Below are positions 8,903 to 17,080 of a DNA stretch of 64,000 bases, one piece after another. Position 1 is the stretch's first letter; every line of letters starts with the position of its first letter. The translations under genes were made by a program, and so were the position numbers. Where the stretch lies: assembly GCF_000175575.2 (NCBI RefSeq), contig NZ_CP005986.1, forward strand, positions 1,994,615 to 2,058,614, read 5' to 3'. Origin of the DNA: Acidithiobacillus caldus ATCC 51756 (GTDB lineage: Bacteria > Pseudomonadota > Gammaproteobacteria > Acidithiobacillales > Acidithiobacillaceae). The notes under the pieces are model-generated. The model was not told the origin of the DNA, did not search any database, and saw nothing but the letters and a program-made list of their open reading frames with translations.

Positions 8903-10744
8903 TCAGGCATCCAGCCAGCGCAGGAAGGCCTCGGGACCGAGGTAGCCCTCCTGCACCTTCTCCACCTGCCCGCTGGCATCCAGGCGGATGAAGGCAGGCG
9001 GACCGACCAGATGGAAGCGCTGCAAGAGCGCCTTGCTCGCGGCGGTGTCGGCGGTAACGTCCACCCGAATCAAGGCATCGCCCGCCAGCGCCCGGCGCAC
9101 CTTGGCATTGGCGAAGGTCACCTTGTCCATGCGCGCGCACTCGATGCACCACTGTGCCCAGTAGTCTATGAGTACCGGCTTGCCATGGGCAGCGGCCAAG
9201 GCGCTTTCCAGCTCCCTCGGGCTTTTGACGACGGTAAAGTGCAGCTCGGCGGTGCCCGCGGTCTGGACCGCGGAGGTCGACGCTGGCACAGCGGTGGCAG
9301 GCCTTCCCAAGGGCTCCAAGGGATCGCCGTGGCCGGTGAGGGCACCGTATCCAGCCAACAGGCCATAGGCCAGAAGGAGCACGGCGATACCTTTGCGCAG
9401 ATAGTGCCAGCCAGGGGCGGCGGACGGTATGGGCTCCAGCGCGTGGAGATACACGGCACAGACCACGGCCAGAGTGGCCCAGAGCAGCAGGCTGATGTCA
9501 CCGGGCAGTATGCGCGCCAGCAGCCAGATGGCCACGCCGAGCATGAGCACACCAAAAACGGCCTTGGTGGCATCCATCCAGGGACCGGCCCGAGGCAGCA
9601 GGTGTCCCGCCGAGGTACCGATGACCAGCAGCGGCAGCCCCATGCCGAGGCTCAGCACCAAAAGCGACAGGGCTCCCAGAAGCACATTGCCCGTTTGAGA
9701 GATGAACAACAGCCCACCTGCCAAGGGCGCGGCGACACAGGGCCCGACGATGAGGGCCGAGAGAACCCCCATGACGAAACTACCCACGAAGTGCCCGCCC
9801 CTTCCCACCGTCGATAGACGACTCTGAATGCTGCTGGGCATCTGCAATTCGTAAAAGCCGAACATGGATAGGGCCAGAAGCACAAAGATCGCGGCAAAGG
9901 CAGCCAGAACCCAAGGACTCTGAAAAAAGGCCTGAAAGTAGGCACCCGTCAACGCCGCAAGGACGCCCGCCAGCGTGTAGGTCAGGGCCATGCCCAGCAC
10001 GTAGGCAAGGGACAGGAAAAAAGCCCGCGCGCGACCGGGGTGATCCTTCTGACCGACGATGAGGGCCGAGAGGATGGGGATCATGGGAAAAACGCAGGGG
10101 GTAAAGGCAAGTCCCAGGCCCGACAGAAAGAAGAGCCCCAGCGTCAGCCAGAAACGATCCTGCAGATCACCGGCCAGCGCCCTAGCATTGCTTTGCGCCG
10201 TGGGGGCGACGCGCGTGGAGGGGACTGCGGAGCTTGCCGAGGCTGCGGTAGCGCTGGCCGTCGGCGCCGCTGTTGCCGCACCCAGGTCGACGTCGATGGT
10301 CTCGTGTTGCTCGGGATAACAGACGCCGGCATTGGCGCAGCCCTGGAAGGTGCTGCTCACCGCGATCACCGAGGGCAGAGGGCCATCGCTGGTGTAGTGG
10401 GCGACGACGGTATTCTTACCCTCCAGCACACGTACCTTACCAAAGGCAGGGTCATCCAGCTCCTTACCCGGGGGCAGATCGATCTTTTGCAGGTGCAGCG
10501 TATCCGGCGCGATGGACACGCGGATGCGATCGCGGTAGAGGTGATACCCCGGCGCCACGGTCCAGGTCAGTTCCAGGCGCCCGGGTCCGTCGGCCTTGGC
10601 CGCAAAGCGAAAAGCCTGATCCGGAGGCAGGAAAGCGGCACTGGCAAAGAGCGGGATCAGCAGCAGAATCAGAAGGAGCAGCATCCCAAGCCCGTTGTGC
10701 CAAAAGGCACGCTCTCCATCCGCCCGAGATGCCATTACGCTCAT
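8903..10744 (-). CDS. dsbD: Thiol:disulfide interchange protein DsbD
   Basis: About 613 residues of inner-membrane protein that carries electrons from cytoplasmic thioredoxin to periplasmic DsbC/DsbG-type isomerases. A signal sequence precedes the periplasmic alpha domain with a cysteine pair (GCANAGVCYPEQ, about 136 and 142). The eight-helix beta domain contains cysteines in TPCVFPMIP and VGPCVAAPL. The C-terminal thioredoxin-like gamma domain has WCIEC at about 532-536. I chose the ATG at 10744 for its AGGAGG site; a longer in-frame extension has none. It lies downstream of cutA and may supply reductant to the DsbG-like protein at 32887-33744. Confidence 0.95.
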   Translation of the reverse strand: MSVMASRADGERAFWHNGLGMLLLLILLLIPLFASAAFLPPDQAFRFAAKADGPGRLELTWTVAPGYHLYRDRIRVSIAPDTLHLQKIDLPPGKELDDPAFGKVRVLEGKNTVVAHYTSDGPLPSVIAVSSTFQGCANAGVCYPEQHETIDVDLGAATAAPTASATAASASSAVPSTRVAPTAQSNARALAGDLQDRFWLTLGLFFLSGLGLAFTPCVFPMIPILSALIVGQKDHPGRARAFFLSLAYVLGMALTYTLAGVLAALTGAYFQAFFQSPWVLAAFAAIFVLLALSMFGFYELQMPSSIQSRLSTVGRGGHFVGSFVMGVLSALIVGPCVAAPLAGGLLFISQTGNVLLGALSLLVLSLGMGLPLLVIGTSAGHLLPRAGPWMDATKAVFGVLMLGVAIWLLARILPGDISLLLWATLAVVCAVYLHALEPIPSAAPGWHYLRKGIAVLLLAYGLLAGYGALTGHGDPLEPLGRPATAVPASTSAVQTAGTAELHFTVVKSPRELESALAAAHGKPVLIDYWAQWCIECARMDKVTFANAKVRRALAGDALIRVDVTADTAASKALLQRFHLVGPPAFIRLDASGQVEKVQEGYLGPEAFLRWLDA

Positions 10745-10837
10745 TCTCCACCCCTCCTGGAACCTATTCTGGCGACTATGCACGATACCCGCCTCTGCAG
10801 CAAAATCCACGCCAGCGCCCGACGAGTCCGCCAGCGT

Positions 10838-11161
10838 TCAGTGCAAGGCATCCCCCAGCCAGCGGGCATAGGCACCTAGTGCCGCGTCCGCACGGAAAGC
10901 GAGGATCTCCGGCACCGCATAGGGGTGCAGGGCCAGCAGGGTCTGTTCCAACACGGCATAACGCTCGGCCTCGGTTTTTATGAGCAGAATCCGTTCGCGC
11001 TGCTCCTCACGCTCCCCTTTCCAGACGTAGATCGAAAGCCCGGCGGGAAGGCAGTGCACACAAGCGGCAAGCTTCTGCTCCAAGAGCGCTCCGGCGATCT
11101 CCCGCGCCAGGGTATCGGAATCCGGAATGCTGCACAGCACCAGAAGTATCGATTCAGCCAT
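10838..11161 (-). CDS. cutA: CutA-type divalent cation tolerance protein
   Basis: This 107-residue protein has the CutA1 fold pattern: an N-terminal strand LLVLCSIPD, the AACVHCLPAG turn, YVWKGE, and HPYAVPEILAF near the C-terminus. CutA proteins are small, very stable PII-like trimers associated with copper and other divalent metal tolerance. The start overlaps the end of the upstream GGDEF gene by eight bases. dsbD follows after about 93 bases. Confidence 0.93.
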   Translation of the reverse strand: MAESILLVLCSIPDSDTLAREIAGALLEQKLAACVHCLPAGLSIYVWKGEREEQRERILLIKTEAERYAVLEQTLLALHPYAVPEILAFRADAALGAYARWLGDALH

Positions 11162-12314
11162 GGATGTCTAGATCTCCCTCATCTCCAGAGAAGGACGACA
11201 CTGCGGCACCCTGTTTCGGCGGCAAGTCCTCGGCATTGGCAAAGCACCAACTGCACTCACGCCGTCCCTTGGACGCCTTGGCCTTGTAGAGCGCCATATC
11301 CGCAAGTCGCAAAAGTCGCTCCGCATCCTGAGCAGGATGGTCCACGGCAAGGGCAACTCCCATGCTGGCCCGCATCGACCACTGTCGATCTGCCAGGGCA
11401 AGGGGGCGTGCCAGTGCCGCCTCCAGGCGAGAGAGCACCTCTTCCGCATTGCGCTCGGCGCAACCGTGCAGCAAGAGCACAAATTCGTCACCACCATAGC
11501 GCGCCACGAAATTCTCCCGCCGCAGACTGGCACAGAGGCGCTCCGCCAGAGCACGCAACATGGCGTCTCCGGCTTGGTGCCCCAACTCGTCGTTGATGGC
11601 CTTGAAGTCGTCCAGATCCAGCATCACCACAGCCGTGCGCCCCGCCCCATCGAGCGCCCTCGGCGTCACCAGCACACGTTGCAAGGCGCGCCGATTGGGA
11701 AGATCCGTCAGGGGATCCCGCTCGGCCACCTGCCGCAGTTGCCGGTGTAGGTCCTGGGTCCGCCGCTGCGCCTCCCACAGATCGAGACTATCGGCCATGA
11801 AGCGGGCAAGAATGGTGGCGGCCAGCTCCAACTCGGCGGGCGGCAGATCCCGGGTTCCGGCGAGCACCAGCACTCCCCAGGCAGTCCCCTGCCTTTCCAT
11901 GGGCGCGGCAGCCAGCCAGCGAATACCGATCCTCGCCAGAGTCTCGCGCCAGCCTGCGAGATTTGGGTGCTGCAGGTACTCGCTACGCGGGTAATCCGCC
12001 ACCACCAGGGTGCGGCCTTCATGCAGGGCGCGTACCGACACACTGCGGGCATGGGGATGATCCGGCGCAAAGAATACGCGGACGTCGCTCAGGATATGCT
12101 CGCGGAATGGCCCACCTGCAGCCACCGGCCGCAGGACACCATCGGCGTCAGCGCGCCCCACGGCTACGCTGTGCAGGAGCGGGTTTCCCTCCAGACAGTT
12201 GGCCATGCGCCCAAGCAGATCCAGATCGGTCGATTCCGCAAAACGCTCCGGTTCGGCAAAGGGAACACGGCTGACGCACGAAAAGGTTCCCAACCACGCC
12301 CGCAGATCATTCAC
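11154..12314 (-). CDS. GAF-GGDEF protein, probable diguanylate cyclase
   Basis: About 386 residues of cytoplasmic protein with an N-terminal GAF-like sensor half (roughly residues 25-180) and a C-terminal GGDEF domain with the active motif ARYGGDEFVLLLHG. It should make cyclic di-GMP. The inhibitory I-site just upstream, normally RxxD, reads RREN here, so product inhibition may be weak. No EAL domain follows. I chose the GTG at 12314 because AAAGGAG lies about eight bases before it; an in-frame TTG at 12350 gives 12 more residues. Its stop overlaps cutA, so a GGDEF-cutA-dsbD operon is likely. Confidence 0.9.
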   Translation of the reverse strand: MNDLRAWLGTFSCVSRVPFAEPERFAESTDLDLLGRMANCLEGNPLLHSVAVGRADADGVLRPVAAGGPFREHILSDVRVFFAPDHPHARSVSVRALHEGRTLVVADYPRSEYLQHPNLAGWRETLARIGIRWLAAAPMERQGTAWGVLVLAGTRDLPPAELELAATILARFMADSLDLWEAQRRTQDLHRQLRQVAERDPLTDLPNRRALQRVLVTPRALDGAGRTAVVMLDLDDFKAINDELGHQAGDAMLRALAERLCASLRRENFVARYGGDEFVLLLHGCAERNAEEVLSRLEAALARPLALADRQWSMRASMGVALAVDHPAQDAERLLRLADMALYKAKASKGRRECSWCFANAEDLPPKQGAAVSSFSGDEGDLDIHG

Positions 12315-12431
12315 CCAGTACGCTCCTTTTTGCTCCCTCTCGGGCCTCAAACCGGGTATTCCGCTGGCGCGACCGCCAACGTACCGTGCTTGAGCCTAGT
12401 GGCGCACCGTCAAGGTGGCAAGCGCCGGGAC

Positions 12432-12460
12432 AGAAAAAGGGATGCCCACAGGCATCCCTT
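12432..12460 (-). terminator. Rho-independent terminator after the HiPIP gene
   Basis: A perfect 10-bp stem (12437-12446 with 12451-12460) closes a 4-base loop. Read on the minus strand it runs into a short T tract (TTTTTCT). It lies 30 bases beyond the HiPIP stop and ends the DUF3034-globin-HiPIP transcript before the GGDEF gene. Confidence 0.87.
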
Positions 12461-12489
12461 CTTCGCGGCAAAATGGATGAAATCTTGTC

Positions 12490-12777
12490 TCAGCTGCCCA
12501 TGGGCGTGTAGGCGTAGCAGTAGCCGTGAGGGCTGATCTTGCCGGCCACCACCTTACAGGTGCCATCGGCCGTCGGCTTTGGCCCTGGGACGAAATGGGC
12601 GCAGTTGCTGCACATATCTTTGCCCTCGGGCTTGTCCTGGTAGCTCACGGAGGCCTTGCTCTGCAAGTCGCTGTCGGAGGCATCGGCGCGCGCGGTAAAG
12701 ACCAGAGGAGCGACGACAGCAACGGCGCTGATCTTGGCCGCGGACTTCAACCATTCACGACGGGATACGGATTTCAT
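12490..12777 (-). CDS. Tat-exported high-potential iron-sulfur protein (HiPIP)
   Basis: This 95-residue protein has a twin-arginine signal (SRREWLK, Arg6-Arg7, then a hydrophobic stretch ending near TARADA). The mature HiPIP domain has four cluster cysteines at 56, 59, 74 and 87 (CSNC, GTCKV, GYCYAY). HiPIPs carry one electron on a [4Fe-4S] cluster in the periplasm. In Acidithiobacillus such proteins (Iro/Hip) are linked to iron or sulfur respiration. AAGGAG precedes the ATG. It follows the globin gene after 138 bases with a terminator between, so it may also have its own promoter. Whether it is orthologous to iro or to hip cannot be settled here. Confidence 0.93.
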   Translation of the reverse strand: MKSVSRREWLKSAAKISAVAVVAPLVFTARADASDSDLQSKASVSYQDKPEGKDMCSNCAHFVPGPKPTADGTCKVVAGKISPHGYCYAYTPMGS

Positions 12778-12842
12778 GGCTATCTCCTTGCGGGTGTGTG
12801 GAAGAACACCAGTTACTACGCGGTGGCGCACATCGTGGATGC

Positions 12843-12866
12843 AAAAAAGAGGGCGCGAGGCCCTCT
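12843..12866 (-). terminator. Terminator between the globin and HiPIP genes
   Basis: A 7-bp stem AGAGGGC/GCCCTCT with a 5-base loop is followed on the minus strand by six T residues (12843-12848). It sits about 50 bases after the globin stop and about 65 before the HiPIP start, so it would end or attenuate the upstream transcript within the cluster. Confidence 0.8.
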
Positions 12867-12915
12867 GAAAACCCAAAATCAGCTCTGGGTGAGGAGGAGT
12901 TGCGTTCCGACTTCC

Positions 12916-13386
12916 TTAACCCAGCGGTCCATTGGCCGTGACGATCTCTGGCTCCATGGGAGCGAGGAGGGACAGCAGATAGTTCTGGGCGCCGATGGGA
13001 ATGCGGTGGGCGTCCATGGCATCGATCATGTCTTGCGCCAGGTAATTGAAGGCCGCCGTGGTAACCTGCAAGTGCTTGTGCGCCTCGACCATGGATTGAC
13101 CCGTATATTTGCAGGGACCACCCACAGCCATGCACACCTGCTGCACCAATTCGTACTTCAGGTGCGGAATATTGGTGTGGGCGAAGTAGTAGTTGATGTG
13201 CGGATCGTTGGCGACGTTGTCCACAAAGGTGTTGATCAAGGCGGTAATGCCGGCCTTGCCGCCAAACTGATCGTAGTAGTTCTGCGCCTGCGCCTGTCCG
13301 CTGTACAGAACACCGAACGCACTCAAACTCAAGGCCAGAATACCGCCCTGAAGCCAGCGTGCGGGCCGAAAGTGCTGCATTGTCAT
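12916..13386 (-). CDS. Exported group 1 truncated hemoglobin
   Basis: This 156-residue protein has a Sec signal peptide (WLQGGILALSLSAFGVLYSG, cleavage probably after AQA near residue 34) followed by a 2-over-2 globin domain. Family marks are FGGKAGI, the GGPCKYTG loop between helices E and F, and the proximal His103 in MVEAHKHL. By-eye alignment with mycobacterial HbN puts Val55 at B10 and Leu at E11, where Tyr and Gln normally bind ligand, so the distal pocket looks apolar. Export of this family is unusual. GGAGG precedes the ATG at 13386. It lies 41 bases after the DUF3034 gene, probably in one operon. Its role (NO, oxygen or electron transfer) is unknown. Confidence 0.9.
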   Translation of the reverse strand: MTMQHFRPARWLQGGILALSLSAFGVLYSGQAQAQNYYDQFGGKAGITALINTFVDNVANDPHINYYFAHTNIPHLKYELVQQVCMAVGGPCKYTGQSMVEAHKHLQVTTAAFNYLAQDMIDAMDAHRIPIGAQNYLLSLLAPMEPEIVTANGPLG

Positions 13387-13427
13387 GATGACCTCCATCA
13401 ATGGATAAAGGGACTGAACCGCGCCTC

Positions 13428-14525
13428 TTAGAAACTCGTGGTCAAGGAGAGATACAGACCGCTCTGGTTCTTCTCCGTGGCAATGGTCCCGAGGTTGACA
13501 TAAGCCGCCGTCAAGGAGAGCGCCTTGTAGGGGAACCAGGCCACATAGACATCCTTCCAGGCGCTGGTCTTGGATACCGCGTCGCCCACCGCCCCAAAGT
13601 TAAGCCCTTTGTACGGTCCCGAAGCGGGCACGAAACCCGACGGAGCAATCAACTGATTCTGGGGCATACTGCGATACTCCGCACCCAGTACGACGTGGCG
13701 ATTGAGGAATATCCCGACCGAGGCTGCCGGCTCTACGGAGTAACCCATTCCGTTGACACCGCCAAACCCCAGCAGACCCTGCTGATTGGCATTGGTGACA
13801 TCGATGTTGACGTTAGCAAGGGTCGTGAGGCCGAACAGACCATCCAGCCAGACCTTGGTGGCGGAAACGTAGTAGCTCACGCCATTACGCTTGACACCGA
13901 GGGTCGCGGCGAGGTTCTTGGGCATCTCGTTGTGGTGGAAATCCACCCCCACAGACACCTCTGGCTCCCACCAGTTCTGGTCATACACGATGTTGCCAAA
14001 GAGACGTACCTTCAGGCCCACGATATCTTGGTTCAGTTGGTAGTTGTCACCAAAAAATTGTGGCCCTGAAAGGCCCAACCCATTTGGTCCTGACGCCGTG
14101 TAAGGTGCGCCGTATGGAACCGGACCACCCGTTGCAGTTTCAAGTATGCGCTGGTCCAAGACTTGCCCGGTGCTACCGAGGCTAAAACTCTGGCGGGCGA
14201 AAGATAACTCAATCCGATTGAAAATGCCCAGCGAGGCACCGTAGGCGTCCATGTTGTAGTTGTTCAGCAGAACGTGGGAATAGAAAGCCGTGGCGCCGAT
14301 CTGCTGGTTGGTGCCATAGCCCGAGATGACCGCCCAGGGATTGATACCGCCACCGGCCGCACCATCCACCGCCGTCACCGCACCCGTGCCCAGAATCCGA
14401 CCCTGACCGAAAAGACTGGCAGCACCAATGGCGCCGTGTGCCGCGAAGGGAAGACTCAGCCCAAGCGCGCAGGTAATCGCCGCAAGTCGACAATGGCGCA
14501 CCCATTTTCTTTTAGGAATATTCAC
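13428..14525 (-). CDS. DUF3034 family outer-membrane beta-barrel protein
   Basis: This 365-residue protein has a signal peptide (cleavage near AAHGA, residue 31) and repeated amphipathic strands ending in a C-terminal phenylalanine (LSLTTSF), the outer-membrane barrel signature. Near the N-terminus AVDGAAGGGINPWAVISGYGT, then IELSFARQ further on, match what I know of the DUF3034 family. The family has no established function; a porin or an anchor for periplasmic partners is possible. Translation starts at a GTG preceded by GAGGAGG. It is the first gene of the cluster with the exported globin and HiPIP and sits behind a sigma-54-like promoter. Confidence 0.88.
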   Translation of the reverse strand: MNIPKRKWVRHCRLAAITCALGLSLPFAAHGAIGAASLFGQGRILGTGAVTAVDGAAGGGINPWAVISGYGTNQQIGATAFYSHVLLNNYNMDAYGASLGIFNRIELSFARQSFSLGSTGQVLDQRILETATGGPVPYGAPYTASGPNGLGLSGPQFFGDNYQLNQDIVGLKVRLFGNIVYDQNWWEPEVSVGVDFHHNEMPKNLAATLGVKRNGVSYYVSATKVWLDGLFGLTTLANVNIDVTNANQQGLLGFGGVNGMGYSVEPAASVGIFLNRHVVLGAEYRSMPQNQLIAPSGFVPASGPYKGLNFGAVGDAVSKTSAWKDVYVAWFPYKALSLTAAYVNLGTIATEKNQSGLYLSLTTSF

Positions 14526-14839: not shown

Positions 14840-14865
14840 TGCATAAGTTCACAAACCTTTGGCAC
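14840..14865 (+). repeat. Left inverted repeat of the IS
   Basis: This 26-base end begins TGCATAAGTTCAC and finishes CCTTTGGCAC. It pairs with the right end with a few mismatches and one extra base. Confidence 0.75.
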
Positions 14866-14888
14866 TTCTTTGGCGAGGGAGGAGTGCC

Positions 14889-15864
14889 ATGCAGGTTCAA
14901 CATGTCGGGTACCGGATCCGAGGGTTTTACCGGGTAGCGGGCTTGGGGCATCGTTGGGAGATGACTCCGAAAGATGCGCAAGAGCGACTCAGAATTGTAC
15001 AGTTCTGGGACAAACACGGTTTGGTGGCCGCCTGCGATGCCTTTGGGGTGTCCCGAAGGACGCTCTATCGGTGGCGAGCGGCCTTGAAGGCCGAAGGCGG
15101 CAATCCCGCCGCCCTGGCCAGCCAGTCCAGCGCGCCCAAACGCCGACGCAGGCCCAAGACCGACCCCAGGCTGGTAGCGGAAATTCGGCGGCTACGTACC
15201 CTTCACCCCAATCTCGGCAAGGACAAGCTGCACGTCCTGCTGCGCCCCTGGTGTGCGGAGAAGGGTATCGCGCTGCCATCGGTGTCCACCCTCGGCAGAA
15301 TCATCGCCCGTGCACCGGATAAAATGCGCCACAGCCCCGCGCGCCTCGATGCCCGTGGTCGCGCCAAGCCTGTGCGGCGTTCTCGCAAGCCGCGCAAGCC
15401 CAAGGGGGTGGCCACCACTGCCTTGCAGTGCCTGGCGGTGGACACTATCGAGCGGGTTCGCGACGGGCTGAAACGCTACCTCGTCACCTTCATCGACCCA
15501 GCCAGCGCCTTTGCCTTGGCCGTCGCTTTACCCAGCAAAGCCACACGCCACACCCAGGCGGCCCTCGCCGCCGTCCCAAACCCTCACGGAACAGCAGATC
15601 GCCCGTTGGTATACCTACCCCAAGACCCCAAAAATGAATGCCCATGCCGAACGCTTCAATCGCACCATCCAGGAATCCTTCGTCGACTACCACGAAGACC
15701 TGCTCTTCACCGACCTCGCCCGCTTCAACCAAAAACTCGCCGAGTGGCTCGTCTTCTACAACGCCGAACGACCACACCATCGACTCGGCCAACAACCACC
15801 GCTATCCTTCCTCCTGCAACATCAGCCCCAGTGCCAAAGGTGGTGGACGCATACAAGGCGTTGA
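14889..15864 (+). pseudogene. Transposase (rve/IS481-like), internally deleted and frameshifted
   Basis: The first part reads from MQVQHVGYRIRG or from MTPKDAQERLRIVQFW (ATG 14961) through a helix-turn-helix (AACDAFGVSRRTLYRW) into the integrase core with the first catalytic Asp (CLAVDTIERV). Around 15570 the frame breaks. The C-terminal part continues one frame over (TEQQIARWYTYPKTPKMNA), with the catalytic Glu in NAHAERFNRTIQE and the usual ending FYNAERPHHRLG. The stretch that should carry the second Asp is missing, so this is a deletion rather than a single-base error. GGAGG precedes the first ATG. Confidence 0.85.
15831..15855 (-). repeat. Right inverted repeat of the IS
   Basis: Read inward on the minus strand this end begins TGTATGCGTCCACCA and finishes CCTTTGGCAC, mirroring the left end. 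It overlaps the last codons of the transposase remnant. Confidence 0.75.
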
Positions 15865-16374
15865 CAAAAATCGCATCCAGACATAGCCTTTCCAACGGCG
15901 ATGAGGTCCGCCTGGAACCGCCTTCGTGGCTAATGACTTCTACCGAATCCGCCAAAGCGGAAGGTAGAGGGTTCAAATGCGATGCAAGGGGGTGTTGTGG
16001 CCAAGGTGACGTTCATGCGGGTGACTTCCGTCGCTGCAACATTTTTCTACCCCCGGCAAGCACCGCATTTTCGAAGCCGTCCTGTACCCTACGCTTCCCG
16101 GCTTTCGGGAGCGTGCCCAGGGCGCGCGAACAGCCCCGTATCGTCTCCCGCTGGCATGGTGATTTTCGCTGCACCATACCCGGTGAGCAGGACAGTGTGC
16201 TCTTCCCCGTGCTTCGCACCCTTGCACCGCAGCGTTGCTGCGCCGCCGCTGCTGCCGAACCACAGCCACCCCCTCTGCGCAATGGTGCAAAGCATTCCTG
16301 TCCAAGATCTGGACGCCTTGTCGTCGCCCCCAGGCTGCGGGTATTTTTCTGTCGTGATACGAGGAGAATGATAC
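15865..16374. other. Gene-free stretch between the IS and crcB
   Basis: I see no convincing gene here; the open frames lack ribosome sites and family similarity. A strong two-part hairpin lies at 15939-15968 (TCTACC/GGTAGA outside, TCCGC/GCGGA inside, CAAA loop) without a T tract. A TTGACA at 15861-15866 has no good partner box. I looked for a fluoride riboswitch ahead of crcB and did not find its conserved segments. Confidence 0.6.
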
Positions 16375-16752
16375 ATGTTCGGGACCTTAGGGCTCATAGC
16401 GGTCTTCGCCGTGCTCGGTGCCTGGGCGCGCTATGGCCAATCGATTCTGGTACAGATGGTACTGGGCCGCGGCTTTCCCTGGGCAACCTTGAGTATCAAC
16501 GTGCTCGGCTGTTTCCTGATGGGATTTCTGTTCTTCGAAACCCTGGAGCGTAGCGCTCTATCGCCAGAGCTGCGCACCGGTATACTGACTGGCGGACTGG
16601 GGGCTTATACCACGTTTTCTACTTTTTCCCTGGAGACCCTGGTACTATTTGAAAACGGAGAGGCGATCAAGGCTTTCGCCTATATGTTTTCTTCACTGTT
16701 TCTCTGTGTGGCGGCAGCCTTCATGGGGGCTTGGGTAGCGCGCAGCATCTAA
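16375..16752 (+). CDS. crcB: CrcB/Fluc fluoride channel
   Basis: This 125-residue inner-membrane protein has four predicted helices and forms a dual-topology dimer that exports fluoride. Family features are GAWARYGQS at residues 15-23, WATLSINVLGCFLMGF with the key Asn, and TGGLGAYTTFSTFS carrying the phenylalanine/threonine track. GAGGAG lies about ten bases before the ATG. Fluoride defence suits an acidophile, because HF enters cells freely at low pH. A DUF190 gene follows after ten bases, a common pairing. Confidence 0.96.
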   Translation: MFGTLGLIAVFAVLGAWARYGQSILVQMVLGRGFPWATLSINVLGCFLMGFLFFETLERSALSPELRTGILTGGLGAYTTFSTFSLETLVLFENGEAIKAFAYMFSSLFLCVAAAFMGAWVARSI

Positions 16753-16762
16753 GGGATAAGCC

Positions 16763-17080
16763 ATGACAAAAGTCTCGGTAGTTCGTGTATACATCCAGGA
16801 AGGAGAAAAGCATGGGGGTCATAATCTCATGGAAGAAATCTTCCGCATGCTCCACGATCAGTACAAGGTGCACGGGGTAACGGCTTTTCGCGGCATTGCG
16901 GGTTTTGGCAGTAAAGGCGTCGTCCGCGCCGACGATATCCTTCGCCTCAATGTGCATCTACCCCTGGTGCTGGAATTCTTCGACAAGCCAGAAACGGTTG
17001 ATGCCGTCCTGCCTCGACTGCAGGAATGGGTTCCTGCCAACCATATCCTGCGATGGGAAGCAGAGTGCGGTTGTCCCTGA
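16763..17080 (+). CDS. DUF190 family protein
   Basis: This 105-residue soluble protein matches the DUF190 family, whose known structures have a PII/CutA-like ferredoxin fold. Visible marks are VSVVRVYIQEGEK, GVTAFRGIAGFGSKG and the final PANHILRWEAE. The function is not established. Its regular location next to crcB suggests a regulatory or accessory role for fluoride export, which is inference. It is ten bases after crcB and probably co-transcribed. Confidence 0.92.
   Translation: MTKVSVVRVYIQEGEKHGGHNLMEEIFRMLHDQYKVHGVTAFRGIAGFGSKGVVRADDILRLNVHLPLVLEFFDKPETVDAVLPRLQEWVPANHILRWEAECGCP

Follow-up and report, generated by a model that had tools for sequence, protein, structure and literature searches.

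Globins and c-di-GMP signalling are combined in DosC and other globin-coupled sensors, in which the globin and the cyclase form one cytoplasmic protein. Signalling by c-di-GMP across the envelope is known from YfiBNR, which consists of an outer-membrane lipoprotein, a periplasmic protein and an inner-membrane cyclase. In PioABC and Cyc2 systems, a barrel is combined with c-type haem and with a periplasmic HiPIP or copper protein. HbN, a group-1 truncated haemoglobin of M. tuberculosis, is of the cytoplasmic type and carries TyrB10 and GlnE11. In cable bacteria, a periplasmic truncated haemoglobin has been proposed to reduce O2 (PMC12093952).

A locus that resembles each of these systems in part was analyzed in a stretch of 64,000 nucleotides from Acidithiobacillus caldus ATCC 51756 (the window), where genes for a DUF3034 protein, a globin, a HiPIP and a GAF-GGDEF protein follow in turn on the minus strand. 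The window globin shares the fold, the proximal His and PheCD1 with HbN, but it is exported and has an apolar distal pocket and a Cys pair. As in DosC, a globin is linked with GGDEF/EAL proteins, whereas here the globin is separate and exported; a DosC-like single globin-GGDEF chain was rejected, the two being separate ORFs in the window. The likeness to YfiBNR lies in the general layout, with an outer-membrane part, a periplasmic part and an inner-membrane GGDEF protein in most hosts of the module described below. The parts themselves differ, being a barrel, a globin, a redox carrier and a dCache-GGDEF-EAL protein, among which no YfiB, YfiR or YfiN family matches were seen. The inner-membrane GGDEF protein with a periplasmic sensor domain that marks YfiBNR may have its counterpart in dCache_3-HAMP-GGDEF-EAL in most hosts; the window has GAF-GGDEF only. 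The cable-bacteria globin is likewise exported, with proposed periplasmic redox chemistry, while DUF3034, a carrier and a c-di-GMP gene are unmentioned in the passage on it. Finally, PioABC and Cyc2 share with the module a barrel, a haem protein and a periplasmic HiPIP or copper protein, but differ in haem type (c-type against globin), in hosts and in the c-di-GMP gene, which belongs to the module. In a search that left most subscription journals outside, no literature linking exported truncated globin, cupredoxin and c-di-GMP was found; the gene combination and the carrier swap appear to be new, each part being of a known family.

Genes, export signals and transcription units in the window

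The initial annotation had described the first three genes as encoding a DUF3034 barrel, a Sec-exported globin and a Tat-exported HiPIP, and this was confirmed with Pfam profiles, signals and, for the barrel, an AlphaFold model. ORFs were called mechanically, and signal peptides were assigned by eye and with a simple script instead of a trained predictor. The DUF3034 gene (13428-14525, minus strand) has a GTG start behind AGGAGG, and its product matched PF11231 with 324 bits (cut-off 25 bits), which places it in the family, and carries a Sec-like signal, MNIPKRKWVRHCRLAAITCALGLSLPFAAHG-A. The AlphaFold2 model, based on an alignment of 62 relatives, was a 12-strand barrel (pLDDT 81) with a Gly-rich conserved N-terminal segment (T47, G49, G55-G60, W64) ahead of the first strand. 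The nearest solved folds were all 12-strand barrels, FapF (Z 18.2) followed by KdgM, NanC, COG4313 and autotransporter barrels; since such barrels all score alike, the FapF match says nothing on function. The protein is thus predicted to be an outer-membrane 12-strand beta-barrel, a prediction that settles the fold and leaves the function aside. A sequence search against solved structures returned designed proteins only. In literature with most subscription journals outside, DUF3034 was named in two papers, and its function was the subject of neither title nor abstract. The family occupies at least 591 genomic places, and its hosts include Caballeronia, Xanthomonas, Methylophilus and Caulobacterales.

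The globin gene (12916-13386, minus strand; ATG start, GGAGG) encodes a protein with a Sec-like signal ending AQA-Q, which matched PF01152 with 44.9 bits (cut-off 21). Its top PDB matches were M. tuberculosis HbN, GlbN and other group-1 truncated globins; by profile and by HisF8, it is a group-1 truncated haemoglobin, with ligands for b-type haem. In a residue table of 36 globin relatives, set against an HbN reference row most of which the PDB match shows, the proximal HisF8 was kept in 36/36 and PheCD1 in 35/36. At the TyrB10 position an aliphatic residue stood in most relatives (Val in the window protein), and at the GlnE11 position Leu, Ile, Phe or Val in all 36 (Leu in the window protein). 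The residue set of an HbN-type NO dioxygenase was absent, with TyrB10/GlnE11 replaced by Val/Leu in the window globin. By established globin chemistry, an apolar distal pocket makes O2 binding less stable, so that NO, CO or a function in redox chemistry is favoured. Because the distal pocket has no hydrogen-bond donor, NO would be a more likely ligand than O2. Two Cys residues were both present in 34 of the 36 relatives and both missing in the other two, a single one never occurring; being kept or lost together, they suggest a disulfide. An export signal was found by the simple script on 100 of 101 globins paired with DUF3034. About 28 of the 101 (~30%, about a third) bear a lipobox, with Asp at +2 in none of these. 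According to the Lol rule, lipoproteins without Asp at +2 go to the outer membrane, so about a third of the paired globins look like proteins lipid-anchored there.

A second exported group-1 globin is encoded outside the window (G000:C1:957193-957564, plus strand; L047, L147), with no DUF3034 gene nearby. It has 73% identity to the window globin over the mature part and a longer N-terminal segment, and this solo copy is also present in several relatives. A transposase-like ORF (14859-16550, plus strand) begins just upstream of the DUF3034 gene, and a near copy of it (L147 6779-7852) lies ~1.3 kb from the solo globin. Genes for CrcB, of the fluoride channel family, and then DUF190 were seen at 16375-17080 (plus strand). 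Phage or plasmid cargo was considered and rejected: no phage match was obtained, and the plasmid records were 13, mostly megaplasmid-size replicons of Caballeronia and Novosphingobium.

The HiPIP gene (12490-12777, minus strand) encodes a protein with the Tat motif SRREWLK, which belongs to the HiPIP family by its PF01355 match (23.6 bits, cut-off 22) and by four Cys spaced CX2CX14CX12C. It matched the HiPIP structures 1ISU and 3H31, and PioC weakly. An assignment as Iro iron oxidase was rejected, the NF041615 score of 71.2 bits being below the equivalog cut-off of 100 bits. HiPIP paralogues are present elsewhere in the genome. The next gene downstream (11154-12350, minus strand) encodes, by Pfam-type domain match, a soluble GAF-GGDEF diguanylate cyclase with no periplasmic sensor domain match.

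The initial annotation had called the three genes operon-like. Between globin and HiPIP, a hairpin resembling a terminator and bearing a T run was detected (12848-12866, minus strand), which is to be read with care, and a stronger one was detected behind HiPIP (12433-12464, minus strand; -23.9 kcal/mol, z -5.9); such sites numbered 3 in 4 kb against 3.0 expected from shuffles. No sigma-70-like promoter was found at the locus. Because of the hairpin ahead of HiPIP, the three-gene operon was not upheld: DUF3034 and globin likely form one operon, HiPIP, although linked, is probably transcribed on its own, and the GGDEF gene likely forms a further unit.

Partners of DUF3034 across genomes

The initial annotation had named a lack of co-occurrence in other genomes as one finding that would refute its proposal. 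In 299 Pseudomonadota genomes searched with a profile of paired globins, a globin above the 140-bit line was found in 25/25 DUF3034 genomes compared with 1/274 others (Fisher p about 1e-35); the sole exception was G154, and the next score was 101 bits. The globin gene adjoined DUF3034 in all 25 DUF3034 genomes, in 24/24 unbiased loci and in 77/80 further loci from named genomes, while none was nearby in L066, which ends at a contig edge, L089 and L136. In control regions 100 kb away, the globin was found in 0/16. DUF3034 and the exported globin were thus genetically inseparable throughout these samples, which bears out the expectation strongly for barrel and globin; for HiPIP it held only in Acidithiobacillaceae and some Caulobacterales.

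Duplicated and decayed pairs were also observed. In G321, two DUF3034-globin pairs point in opposite directions on either side of a GGDEF-EAL gene, all within 10 kb (L150 6450-16265), and a third pair is located elsewhere; judged from this arrangement, the extra pairs are a recent duplication. In G313, DUF3034 and globin each have a second, broken copy just behind the HiPIP gene (L156 12131-12601). In G078 C3, both genes of one pair have decayed together (L217 7883-8733), with an intact pair elsewhere in that genome.

Clustering of neighbours, without prior choice, revealed a usual third and fourth gene. The third encodes an exported protein of ~210 residues annotated as 'methylamine utilization protein', in which H93, C129, H132 and M135 were invariant in 39 sequences. 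Its profile matched cupredoxin domains of copper nitrite reductases, amicyanin and pseudoazurin, and its model, built without one plasmid row, had a cupredoxin fold (pLDDT 94); by the His-Cys-His-Met set on this modelled fold, it is a type-1 copper protein. The fourth gene, which the initial annotation lacks and which belongs to the module in the majority of hosts, encodes a membrane protein with the domain order dCache_3-HAMP-GGDEF-EAL in most of them. Within 6 kb of the unbiased loci, copper protein was found in 19/24, dCache in 17/24 and GGDEF in 18/24, with copper protein and dCache-HAMP-GGDEF-EAL together in 16/24; the corresponding control counts (n=16) were 0, 0 and 2. Genome-wide, the copper protein occurred in 23 of the 25 genomes with DUF3034, compared with 18 of the 274 without; the two DUF3034 genomes that lack it were the window genome and G078. 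On Caballeronia plasmids all four lie in one operon, each gene overlapping or almost touching the next. The copper protein and GGDEF-EAL pair also exists without DUF3034-globin, and by this distribution the module is made of two pairs that join. As a stand-alone two-gene unit, copper protein and dCache-GGDEF-EAL were seen in L201, L204, L205 and L209-L213.

No copper protein was found in Acidithiobacillaceae by profile search of 8 genomes, the same profile being positive in 41/299 genomes. Instead, HiPIP genes lie beside DUF3034-globin in 10 Acidithiobacillaceae genomes, in the orders DUF3034-globin-HiPIP and HiPIP-globin-DUF3034, and these HiPIPs fall in two separate HiPIP clades. A Tat-type HiPIP also follows the globin in four alphaproteobacterial loci where the copper protein is absent (L070, L091, L104, L132); the titles of three of these name Caulobacterales or Caulobacteraceae. 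No locus had both carriers, and well supported branches of the DUF3034 tree, which includes the L098 and L124 rows in wrong frame, force at least 2 carrier switches. Other rows in wrong frame stood in alignments A3 (L130) and A4 (L063, L070, L074, L118), and were left out of A5 and A6. HiPIP thus takes the place of the copper protein in Acidithiobacillaceae and some Caulobacterales. Nothing hints more strongly that the module needs an electron carrier than this exchange, at one position, between two periplasmic one-electron carriers of different chemistry, and on gene linkage the DUF3034-globin-carrier set is not a chance cluster. A carrier nearby was absent in about a third of loci from genome contigs, and a CXXCH scan of neighbours at loci with neither HiPIP nor copper protein gave one match, which was unconvincing. 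In L157 (G319; 10651-12210), L153 and L149, genes for an OmpA-family lipoprotein, a small lipoprotein and a Peptidase_C92-like protein lie between globin and HiPIP.

The sister genome has the same GAF-GGDEF neighbour as the window, and this protein is a possible but weak candidate for the c-di-GMP partner in Acidithiobacillus. A related GGDEF-EAL gene lies near the DUF3034 locus in G321 and G302, but with long flanks searched it was absent at L149 (the other locus of G321), G305, G313, G319 and G300 C3, so the c-di-GMP link of the module in Acidithiobacillaceae is only suggestive.

Proposed mechanism and alternative explanations

The initial annotation had proposed a joint gas-handling or redox device. 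This gained support and was extended by the copper-protein swap and the c-di-GMP gene, and the redox part is better supported than by HiPIP alone because a type-1 copper protein holds its place elsewhere. With a probability of about 50%, the locus would represent, in Acidithiobacillus, a widespread envelope module that senses gas or redox state, has an exchangeable carrier and, in most hosts, acts on c-di-GMP. From the linked parts we infer a gas ligand, an electron exchange and a relay to dCache as follows. The barrel would hold the globin at the outer membrane; the globin would bind a small gas, with a change in haem redox state; and the copper or Fe-S carrier would exchange one electron with the globin and carry the signal of its state through the periplasm. 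The dCache domain of most hosts would read this state and set c-di-GMP, and in Acidithiobacillus the output may be respiration or the GAF-GGDEF protein encoded next to the locus. The fuller proposal of a new type of envelope-spanning sensor, in which a barrel-presented globin gas receptor sets c-di-GMP through a swappable copper or HiPIP relay to dCache-GGDEF-EAL, is tentative. The sensor reading is weakened because the two pairs can work apart, because so many genome-contig loci have no carrier nearby, because the GGDEF neighbour in Acidithiobacillus is of another type (GAF) and not always present, and because hairpins part globin, HiPIP and the GGDEF gene in the window.

Its main rival, which we consider rather doubtful, is a periplasmic enzyme: the globin would reduce or oxidise NO, O2 or peroxide with electrons from HiPIP or copper protein, the barrel would let the substrate in or out, and the c-di-GMP gene would be just co-regulated. 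A dedicated one-electron carrier, swapped yet kept, fits turnover, and O2 reduction by a periplasmic truncated haemoglobin is proposed for cable bacteria (PMC12093952), but the O2-activation residues of HbN, TyrB10 and GlnE11, are replaced by aliphatic ones, and the presence of dCache-GGDEF-EAL at 17 of the 24 unbiased loci also speaks against it. It is unlikely that the HiPIP is an unrelated respiratory carrier merely lying beside the barrel-globin pair in Acidithiobacillus. The intervening hairpin and the HiPIP paralogues would fit such a case, against which stand the linkage in either gene order across 10 related genomes, the second HiPIP clade at the same place, and the recurrence in Alphaproteobacteria at loci that lack the copper protein.

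Haem or metal handling, with the globin as haem carrier and the barrel as its export or import channel, would agree with the strict barrel-globin pairing and with FapF, a polypeptide transporter barrel, as nearest fold. It seems quite improbable, as haem supply needs neither a redox carrier nor a c-di-GMP gene and the FapF match carries no function, 12-strand barrels scoring alike. Very improbable is a conduit for electrons from an outside donor, like Cyc2-rusticyanin or PioABC, made of barrel, haem protein and periplasmic carrier. PioABC likewise pairs a barrel with a HiPIP, and the window HiPIP weakly matches PioC, but CXXCH occurs in none of the three window proteins, a globin with b-type haem would be unusual in such a role, and most of the hosts, a range that includes Caballeronia, Xanthomonas, Methylophilus and Caulobacterales, do not oxidise iron. 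The initial annotation had also suggested that an external donor supplies electrons; this found no support, and an iron-oxidation conduit was rejected for the missing CXXCH and the wrong hosts.

These results give DUF3034 an obligate partner and a testable role. If the sensor reading is true, haemoglobins would be seen to receive gas signals outside the cytoplasm, and a signalling chain would include an electron carrier for which one of different chemistry can stand in. Signalling by c-di-GMP would then be open to gas or redox inputs of a new class.
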